Source: Magnetospirillum sp. (lineage in GTDB: Bacteria > Pseudomonadota > Alphaproteobacteria > CACIAM-22H2). From it: a stretch of DNA of 64,000 bases. Numbering within the stretch: the stretch's first letter is position 1; each line of letters opens with the position of its first letter. Below the pieces are notes generated by a model. It worked only from the letters and a program-made list of their open reading frames with translations, did no database searches and was not told the origin of the DNA. The translations under genes and the position numbers were made by a program. Positions 35,309-37,390 of this stretch are shown piece by piece. The stretch covers positions 308,570 through 372,569 of the forward strand of contig JAPZUA010000004.1 of assembly GCA_027532905.1 (NCBI GenBank), given 5' to 3'.

Positions 35309-37390
35309 ATGGCTGCCAAAAAGAAGCCCGCCAAGAAATCCGCTGCGAAAAAGCCGGTTGCCAAACCGGCAAACGGCAAAAAAGCGACGCAAAAGAAACC
35401 ACTTGCGGCCAAAAAGTCGGTCCCGGCCAAGAAGCCGATCGCGGCCAAAAAGCCCGCTCCGCCCGCGAAAAAAGCGCCTGCCGCCAAAAAGCCGGCCCCC
35501 GCCCCCAAAAAACCGCCGGTCGCGGCCAAGAAACCGGCCCCAGCGCCCAAAAAACCGGTCCTCGCCCCGAAATCGGCCGCAAAAGCGCCCACCAAGTCGG
35601 CTGCGGCGCCAGCGCCAGCGCCGGCGAAATTGGCCCCTGCGAAAGCTGCCCCGGCCAAACCGGTTGCGGCAGCCCCGGCTGGCAAACCGGTCACGGCCAA
35701 AGCCCCGCCGGCCAAGCCCGTCGCCGTTGCCCCACCGCCGCCGCCGCCCAAGCTGCCCGTGAAGGGTCCCGGCGGCACCGTGCTGCCCGACGACGGCGTG
35801 AAGCTCGACGCCAAGGTGCAGCCTGCACAGTTGGCGATTCTGACACCCGAGGCGATCGCCTTCGTGGTCGAGCTCGAGCGCAAATTCGGCGCACGCCGCC
35901 GCGACCTGTTGACCGCGCGCACGGCCCGCCAGGCGCGTCTCGATGCCGGCGAAAAACCCGATTTTTCGCCGATGACGCGCAGCGTGCGCGAAGGCGACTG
36001 GACGGTCGCCCCACTGCCCAAAGACATCCTCGATCGCCGCGTCGAAATTACCGGCCCCGTCGACCGCAAGATGGTCATCAACGCGCTCAACTGCGGTGCG
36101 AACGTGTTCATGGCCGATTTCGAGGACGCCTCCGCGCCAAGCTGGAACAATCTCGTCGACGGCCAGATCAATCTGCGCGACGCGGTCGCGGGCACCATCG
36201 CCTACAGCGATCCAGCCTCCGGCAAAAGCTACAAGCTCAATCCGAAACACGCCGTGCTGTTCGTGCGCCCGCGCGGGCTCGCCTTGCCCGAAAAGCATCT
36301 GACGGTCGACGGCAAGCCGATGGCAGGCGCCTTCTTCGATTTCGGTCTCTATTTCTTCCACAATGCCAAAGCGCTGCTCAAAAACGGCTCGGGCCCGTAT
36401 TTCTACCTGCCCAAGCTCGAAAGCCATCTCGAGGCGCGGCTGTGGAACGACATTTTCGTGCATGCGCAGACCGCCCTCGGCATCAAGGCTGGCTCGATCA
36501 AGGCGACGGTGCTCATCGAAACGATCCTTGCCGCATTCGAGATGGACGAGATCCTCTACGAGCTGCGCGAGCATTCGGCCGGGCTCAATTGCGGGCGCTG
36601 GGACTACATCTTCAGCTTCATCAAGAAGTTCGCGACGCGCCCGGCCTGCCTGATGCCGGACCGCGGCCAGGTCACGATGGTCTCGCATTTCATGCGCGCC
36701 TACAGCCAGCTTGCGATCAAGACCTGCCACAAGCGCAACGTACACGCGATGGGCGGCATGGCGGCCCAGATCCCGATCAAAGACGACGCCGCCGCCAATG
36801 AAGCCGCCATGGACAAGGTGCGCATCGACAAGGAACGCGAAGCCGCAGACGGCCACGACGGCACGTGGGTCGCCCATCCGGGCCTCGTGGCGATCGCCAA
36901 GGCCGCGTTCGACGACAAGATGAAGGACGCCAACCAGATCGCGCGCAAACGCCAGGACGTGCACGTGGCGGCGGCTGATCTGCTGCAAGTGCCGGCCGGG
37001 ACCGCAACCGAAGCGGGCCTGCGCCAAAACTGCGCTGTCGGCATCGGCTATCTCGAAGCCTGGCTGCGCGGCCAGGGCTGCGTGCCGCTCTACAATCTGA
37101 TGGAAGACGCCGCCACGGCCGAGATCAGCCGCGCGCAAGTGTGGCAGCAGCTGCACCACGAAGCGCATCTCGACGACGGGCGTGCGGTCGAAAAATCCTT
37201 CGTGCGCAAGATCGTCGACGAGGAGCTCGAAAAGCTCAAGAAAAGCGTGGGCGCCGAGCGCTACGTCAAGGGCCGCTACAAAGAGGCAGCCAAGATGTTC
37301 CTCGAACTCGTGGAAGCCGAAAACTTCCCCGAATTCCTGACGCTGCCCGCCTACGACTGGCTCGTCGCCAACGAAGCCAAGCTGGGTTAA
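35309..37390 (+). CDS. aceB: Malate synthase A with N-terminal Lys/Ala/Pro-rich tail
   Basis: This 693-residue protein condenses acetyl-CoA and glyoxylate to malate. From about residue 165 it is a normal malate synthase A of about 528 residues: LTPEAIAFVVELERKFGARR, FMADFEDASAPSW, FVRPRGLALPEKH, YLPKLESHLEARLW, NCGRWDYIFSFIK and the catalytic Asp in NLMEDAATAE. Residues 1-160 contain no Asp or Glu at all and consist of AAKKP/APAKKP repeats like histone H1 or AlgP tails. No internal ATG or clear start occurs near residue 150-165 (only a GTG at V158), so the tail appears to be translated. Its stop shares TTAA with the convergent gene. Confidence 0.93.
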   Translation: MAAKKKPAKKSAAKKPVAKPANGKKATQKKPLAAKKSVPAKKPIAAKKPAPPAKKAPAAKKPAPAPKKPPVAAKKPAPAPKKPVLAPKSAAKAPTKSAAAPAPAPAKLAPAKAAPAKPVAAAPAGKPVTAKAPPAKPVAVAPPPPPPKLPVKGPGGTVLPDDGVKLDAKVQPAQLAILTPEAIAFVVELERKFGARRRDLLTARTARQARLDAGEKPDFSPMTRSVREGDWTVAPLPKDILDRRVEITGPVDRKMVINALNCGANVFMADFEDASAPSWNNLVDGQINLRDAVAGTIAYSDPASGKSYKLNPKHAVLFVRPRGLALPEKHLTVDGKPMAGAFFDFGLYFFHNAKALLKNGSGPYFYLPKLESHLEARLWNDIFVHAQTALGIKAGSIKATVLIETILAAFEMDEILYELREHSAGLNCGRWDYIFSFIKKFATRPACLMPDRGQVTMVSHFMRAYSQLAIKTCHKRNVHAMGGMAAQIPIKDDAAANEAAMDKVRIDKEREAADGHDGTWVAHPGLVAIAKAAFDDKMKDANQIARKRQDVHVAAADLLQVPAGTATEAGLRQNCAVGIGYLEAWLRGQGCVPLYNLMEDAATAEISRAQVWQQLHHEAHLDDGRAVEKSFVRKIVDEELEKLKKSVGAERYVKGRYKEAAKMFLELVEAENFPEFLTLPAYDWLVANEAKLG
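35312..35764 (+). repeat. Low-complexity coding repeats (AAKKP/APAKKP) in the malate synthase tail
   Basis: Roughly 20 degenerate units of KKP, AKKP or PAPAKKP occur between residues 2 and 152, with Lys giving way to Pro and Ala toward the end. Codons vary between units, so this is a protein-level repeat rather than a fresh DNA duplication. Confidence 0.85.

Follow-up and report, generated by a model that had tools for sequence, protein, structure and literature searches.

The gene at positions 35309..37390 (forward strand) of the 64,000-nucleotide stretch of DNA analysed here (the window) encodes a malate synthase A of 693 amino acids in which a histone-H1-like basic tail precedes the enzyme. 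Sequence comparison shows this tail to be a lineage trait of the family to which the window's genome belongs (f1), and within that family two enzymes of the malate-pyruvate-PEP node, malate synthase A and pyruvate phosphate dikinase (PPDK), carry mirror-image tails. The original prediction had described the malate synthase tail in the window; its lineage-wide spread and the PPDK tail, as read from the genomes, are additions to it. H1-like tails are thus found here on two housekeeping central-carbon enzymes, at opposite termini, in one lineage and under selection. By analogy with AlgP and PhaF, we hold with moderate confidence that the tail is a polycationic tether that would place malate synthase and PPDK on a polyanion and leave catalysis unchanged.

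The assignment of the gene rests on its open reading frame, its ATG start, and its family and structure-chain matches; a Shine-Dalgarno-like AAGGG (35295..35299, forward strand) lies 9 nt 5' of the ATG. A full-length catalytic part had been predicted from about residue 165, and the alignments bear this out. Homology to PDB chain 3cux_A begins at residue 165 and extends to residue 684 (733 bits), chain 3cuz_A (malate synthase A) aligns with residues 175-684 (588 bits), and the malate_syn_A model TIGR01344 matches residues 177-685 over model positions 1-510 of 511 (831.2 bits, against a cut-off of 594.5). The catalytic part, residues 164-693 (35798..37387, forward strand), contains the three Pfam domains found in the protein, MS_N (residues 170-224), MS_TIM-barrel (316-561), and MS_C (566-683), and its charge is balanced, with 69 K+R vs 69 D+E. 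As ordinary malate synthases A, 3cux and 3cuz, which we take to come from B. anthracis and E. coli, have the whole catalytic chain in common with the window protein, but with chains of 528 and 532 residues, aligned from residues 8 and 21, they have no room for a tail. Arg320 and Asp600 (in MEDAATAEIS) pair with the same amino acids in the 3cuz chain and do not vary across 24 sequences, and the surroundings of Asp600 are intact. Arg320 presumably occupies the place of the catalytic Arg of E. coli MSA, and Asp600 aligns with Asp447, described as the active-site base of that enzyme (PMC3112382). The product therefore reads, from homology, as a complete and normal malate synthase A behind a basic tail.

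Upstream of the gene lies a phage-integrase-family recombinase (~34242-35198), and a motif search, with some flanks incomplete, placed a XerC-type C-terminal motif immediately before the malate synthase gene in 16 of the 19 f1 genomes that have the enzyme. Downstream are a gene for an HpcH/HpaI-family lyase (38165-39109), which is citE-, RipC- or malyl-CoA-lyase-like and scores below the NCBIfam cut-offs, and after it accA (39176-40129); a DUF1223 gene on the minus strand lies between.

The composition of the tail is as had been predicted. Residues 1-160 comprise 48 Ala, 41 Pro, 39 Lys, 10 Val, 5 Leu, 5 Gly, 4 Ser, 4 Thr, and four single residues; Lys, Ala, and Pro make up 128 of the 160, there is no Arg, Asp, or Glu, and the first acidic residue is residue 161. 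The pI of this segment is 11.6, and the whole protein has a net charge of +37. The predicted AAKKP-type units, as in AlgP, hold in part: AAKKP does occur four times, but the tail is better described as a mixture of AKKP, KKP, and PAK units (KKP 9, KPVA 3), and the KPAA repeat of AlgP is absent (KPAA 0). What the tail has in common with the AlgP/PhaF/histone-H1 class is its acid-free composition dominated by Lys, Ala, and Pro. Its Lys codons lean to AAA more than those of the body in all nine genus members compared, with p <0.05 in five of them.

Three segments can be distinguished along the tail, all on the forward strand. The distal half, residues 1-81 (35309..35551), is 33% Lys with KK doublets and has pLDDT <50; residues 82-150 (35552..35758) are, by composition and in the structure model, an Ala/Pro-rich proximal spacer, the proximal half having about 15% Lys; and the junction VKGPGGTVLPDDG (35759..35797) contains the motif VKGPGGTxLP, which is kept in nine genus rows of the alignment. 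The Lys asymmetry between the distal and proximal halves of the window tail is rare among shuffles (p 0.004). An AlphaFold model built with 24 sequences gives residues 1-146 a pLDDT <50, with the body mostly >90, and places no secondary structure element in the first 150 residues, so that the tail is predicted to be intrinsically disordered.

The same layout recurs in the family. Fifteen long tails span 96-196 residues and carry net charges of +31 to +44, and charge varies less than length (CV 0.11 vs 0.19), the two being correlated at 0.73. In 15 of 15 the outer half is the more charged (K+R 30-46% vs 14-31% in the enzyme-side half) and Pro is higher in the enzyme-side half, although these are not 15 independent cases, because the rows are related. 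Long tails from other families (G149, G221, and G389) show the same distal/proximal division, and the short tail of G017 (L015) is without distal charge bias. The primary sequence is loose, with a mean column identity of 40% over 14 tails, except at the start and, in the genus, at the VKGPGGTxLP junction. The layout is that of a flexible spacer bearing a charged anchor at its outer end.

Lys-rich tails are rare in the window's genome. In 464 kb, made up of the window and 20 untargeted stretches of 20 kb, the malate synthase tail was the only frame of this kind under a rule that asks for 12 or more Lys per 60 residues together with 36 or more K/R/A/P and no more than 3 D/E, and that an Arg-rich tail would escape. 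A K-rich minus-strand frame near 47571-47870 was rejected as the shadow of an acidic stretch in the gene at 46576-48618, the product of which reads as CobT-like. Searches of the window's genome with the tail as query (150 of 674 candidates scored) and with a tail profile returned only the tail itself at useful E-values; these negatives carry little weight, because the profile also missed known tails, namely the malate synthase tails of G004 (one of the rows from which it was built), G016, G149, and the f88 genomes, and the PPDK tail of the window's genome.

The original prediction had called for alignment with close relatives, and there the tail is conserved. The comparison covered 23 genomes, the window's and 22 others (G001-G022) from its genus and family f1, the search of the order having returned f1 alone. 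Malate synthase A was found in 19 of the 23. Its tail is long in 16 of these 19, including ten of genus g1 (the window and the frame-shifted G009 among them) together with G012, G015, G016, G019, G021, and G022, the G015 and G016 loci being cut or split by contig ends; it is short (~32-38 residues) in G013 and G017, and absent in G011, which either lost it or never possessed one. As it is missing in one genome, short in two, and out of frame in G009, the malate synthase tail is not indispensable.

Further afield, a survey of 385 genomes of the Alphaproteobacteria identified 73 with the N-terminal part of malate synthase A (G312 gave only a C-terminal piece). A long tail is present in seven of the 73, from three families: G000, G002, and G012 (f1), G149 (f128), and G109, G221, and G389 (f88), the beginning of the G109 tail being off its contig. 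The upstream frame was read where the open frame reached at least 570 aa; the unread frames, of at most 567 aa, have no room for a tail of more than ~50 aa and could hide a short one. A survey of genome contigs gave two tailed loci among the best 80 of 590 (L037 and L047), and both repeat genomes already counted (G001, and G221 with the same upstream sequence). In a tree of 67 catalytic parts, picked by hand from 23 loci (partial ones excluded), 25 class-survey sequences, and 19 of the best 80 loci, and with the frame-shifted L010 scored as tailed, 15 long-tailed and 2 short-tailed rows fall on one side of a starred branch (97/91). The f88 pair lies elsewhere, beside the tail-less G011, on a branch that is unstarred. 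The tail label requires two changes on this tree for any tail, or three for a long one, and possible origins include one gain with losses or two gains (f1 plus f128, and f88).

A second tailed enzyme emerged from a search of 17 genomes with the HC2 histone H1-like model (PF07382), which led to PPDK. None of the 17 genomes scored above the 40-bit cut-off, and the one weak hit that the window's genome gave, at 23.8 bits, falls on the tail of PPDK and not on that of malate synthase; a relationship of the malate synthase tail to HC2 was rejected as below the cut-off. The PPDK gene of the window's genome (G000:C5:21794-25315, minus strand; open frame L267:795-4316) scores 1393 bits with TIGR01828, for which the cut-off is 843, and its product continues past the normal end of the enzyme for another 113 residues, of which 30 are K and 9 are R. 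Among 37 genomes surveyed for PPDK (with no match in G003, G019, G022, and G178), every f1 genome with a match (20 of 20) has a C-terminal tail of 87-121 residues, G011 and genus g5, which lacks malate synthase, included; none of the 13 genomes outside f1 has one, only 5-9 residues being found there. Charge is higher in the outer half in each of the nine tails measured among the 20, tail dN/dS is 0.09-0.24 in four pairs, and a DRHxRVxIxAGRRSAAxRVS-like stretch is present in most of the family's PPDK tails, though not in the three of genus g5. Outside f1 the two tails are uncoupled, G149, G221, G109, and G389 having the malate synthase tail without the PPDK tail.

Other proteins were also read for such ends. 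None of the six isocitrate lyases, four PHA synthases, and three malate synthases G that were read has a Lys-rich end. A GST-like protein of G149 (L182:121-1248) has an H1-like N-terminal tail of ~75 residues; the top match to it in the window's genome has an open frame of 225 aa, and the three top matches outside that genome 202-220 aa, too short to accommodate a tail. Basic Lys/Arg/Ala-rich N-termini were seen in an aspartate dehydrogenase (G109, L227:1447-2424) and a CheZ-like protein (G004, L225:1453-2154). Tails of this sort thus recur as an add-on in this part of the class, and the tailed proteins are of mixed function and do not belong to one pathway.

A link to the glyoxylate shunt, as a simple cause of the tail, was rejected on the distribution of isocitrate lyase. 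A strong match (first segment E ~1e-50 or better) is present in 11 of the 23 order genomes, and eight genomes have weak matches only despite a long-tailed malate synthase (G001, G005, G008, G012, G016, G019, G021, and G022); several of the eight are incomplete, and G005, G012, G016, and G021 are 98-100% complete. Malate synthase A being kept where a strong isocitrate lyase match is lacking, its glyoxylate may come from elsewhere.

In the papers considered, bacterial H1-like tails occur on the nucleoid- or granule-organising proteins AlgP and PhaF. AlgP (AlgR3) of P. aeruginosa has a net charge of +55 and localises to polyphosphate granules, for the spacing of which its KPAA domain is needed (PMC9239181), and peptides of that domain bind DNA (PMC9239181; PMC3574117). 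Like the window tail, the domain has ~150 Lys/Ala/Pro-rich residues, is predicted to be disordered, and has a very high net charge, but it is a C-terminal KPAA repeat on a 124-residue predicted-helical domain (PMC9239181), whereas the window tail is N-terminal, irregular, and attached to a complete enzyme. PhaF of P. putida (net +35; PMC9239181) likewise joins a disordered Lys-rich domain, its C-domain, to a functional module; it binds DNA and is thought to tether the carbon store to the nucleoid (PMC3574117, PMC9239181), and the window tail resembles it in composition, predicted disorder, and charge. The other module of PhaF is a PHA-binding phasin, while that of the window protein is an enzyme, and Pfam finds no phasin domain in the window protein. 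Mosquito RpS6 also is a housekeeping protein with a histone-H1-like extension in one lineage, but it is a eukaryotic ribosomal protein and its extension is C-terminal (PMC548281). No published case of an H1-like-tailed malate synthase or PPDK was found in the open-access PMC literature. As a module, the H1-like tail is of a kind already described; its place on two central enzymes of one lineage is, to our knowledge, new.

We suggest that the Lys-dense distal half of the tail would bind a polyanion non-specifically and that the Ala/Pro spacer would let the folded enzyme hang free. The partner would most likely be nucleoid DNA, and next polyphosphate; DNA is the likelier, since DNA binding is known for Lys/Ala/Pro domains of this type and the nucleoid is always present. 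Lysine runs bind RNA, acidic lipids, and acidic proteins as well. The tail would then act as an electrostatic address, and malate synthase and PPDK would become concentrated on a single surface, putting the glyoxylate-to-malate and pyruvate-to-PEP conversions, which malic enzyme could link, in one place. Alternatively, it may tie the distribution of the enzymes to the chromosome or to granules, as AlgP and PhaF do for polyphosphate and PHA granules. The matching tail on PPDK argues for such a shared localisation role over one specific to malate synthase.

Any such role presupposes that the tail is made. A mis-called start, with translation beginning at about residue 158-164 and leaving the tail out, might seem to be permitted by in-frame GTG codons at residues 151, 158, 164, and 170, of which the original prediction had given GTG 158 as an example of a start that would overturn it. 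In G009, moreover, the whole tail is present (on G009:C48, L157, just upstream of the match that ends at 11046), but a single-base shift in a C-rich run near the boundary breaks the frame between it and the enzyme; the shift could be an error in the sequence or a genuine break, and would fit an internal start or such an error. The GTG at 158 exists in the window, but among nine genus members, the window included, this codon is GTG in only four, ATG in two, and ATC or ACG in three (two and one, respectively). No in-frame ATG follows residue 1 until residue 222, in agreement with the remark that none occurs near the boundary. Nine genus members with an in-frame tail, the window counted, share the protein start MAAKKK[P/L]AKK, and each has an AAGG core no more than 20 nt ahead of the ATG. 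In six close pairs, dN/dS is 0.07-0.34 in the tail vs 0.05-0.13 in the body, tail dS being 1.2-2.5 times body dS; the tail value is above the body value in 6 of 6 pairs, which indicates weaker constraint in the tail. Among three close relatives, ungapped columns containing Lys are invariant in 38 of 41 cases vs 86 of 121 for the others (Fisher p 0.005). Conserved Shine-Dalgarno sequence and start, tail dN/dS, steadier Lys columns, and an unconserved codon 158 together argue that the tail is translated protein, in frame with the enzyme from the ATG at 35309; a start artefact is effectively ruled out by the conserved signals and by dN/dS. As these substitution patterns indicate, purifying selection acts on the tail, and it preserves composition and charge more than the sequence itself. 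The same patterns bear on the idea that a GC-rich, low-complexity repeat tract grew at the start of the gene and was tolerated as nearly neutral. The tail DNA does contain repeats of period 18, 21, and 42, its GC is 0.677 vs 0.652 for the whole window, and its length spread in the family and its dN/dS above that of the body would both fit. Yet dN/dS is well below 1, the Lys columns are mostly invariant, tails have been kept along a long tree branch, and PPDK has a like tail in every f1 genome with a match although such tails are rare in the genome; composition pressure could explain the Ala and Pro, but probably not the Lys. On dN/dS, the tree, and this rarity, we give neutral repeat growth little credence.

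Two further readings accept a selected tail and assign it another task. The tail may target malate synthase, and with it PPDK, to polyphosphate granules as in AlgP, or to PHB granules and the nucleoid as in PhaF, so that enzymes for the re-use of stored carbon would sit at the store. The granule location of AlgP and the role of its KPAA domain in spacing favour this (PMC9239181), as does the net charge of the window protein set beside that of PhaF. All 23 order genomes have a PHA synthase, which would suit a granule, but the enzyme does not discriminate, since G011, with its tail-less malate synthase, has one too, and a link of the tail to PHB is therefore uninformative; the missing phasin domain and the purely cationic character of the tail also speak against a granule address, which we regard as a tentative alternative. 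That the tail regulates, by folding over the CoA, ATP or PPi sites or by binding an acidic regulator and so tuning activity, seems to us unlikely. Malate synthase (acetyl-CoA) and PPDK (ATP/PPi/PEP) do use anionic substrates, and the stretch conserved in most PPDK tails could be read as a regulatory motif, but the malate synthase tail keeps composition more than motifs and has no structure in the AlphaFold model. The placing of the tails at opposite ends of the two enzymes argues against fold-specific regulation and for location.

The observation behind the original prediction is thus confirmed, and its interpretation is supported in part, namely in the in-frame fusion, the start, and the conservation in relatives; the binding of DNA, polyphosphate, or membrane and the regulation of the enzyme that it proposed are putative. 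Returning to the tether that we favour, a broader version would have family f1 use interchangeable H1-like tails, at either end, to build a scaffolded assembly in which malate synthase A, PPDK, and possibly further selected central-carbon enzymes are gathered on the nucleoid or on polyphosphate; of this we are doubtful, and offer it as a possibility. The family provides a paired natural comparison, with two enzymes, two termini, and tail-less relatives. If the tails do tether their enzymes, they would represent a simple case of bacterial metabolism organised on DNA or polyphosphate by charge alone.
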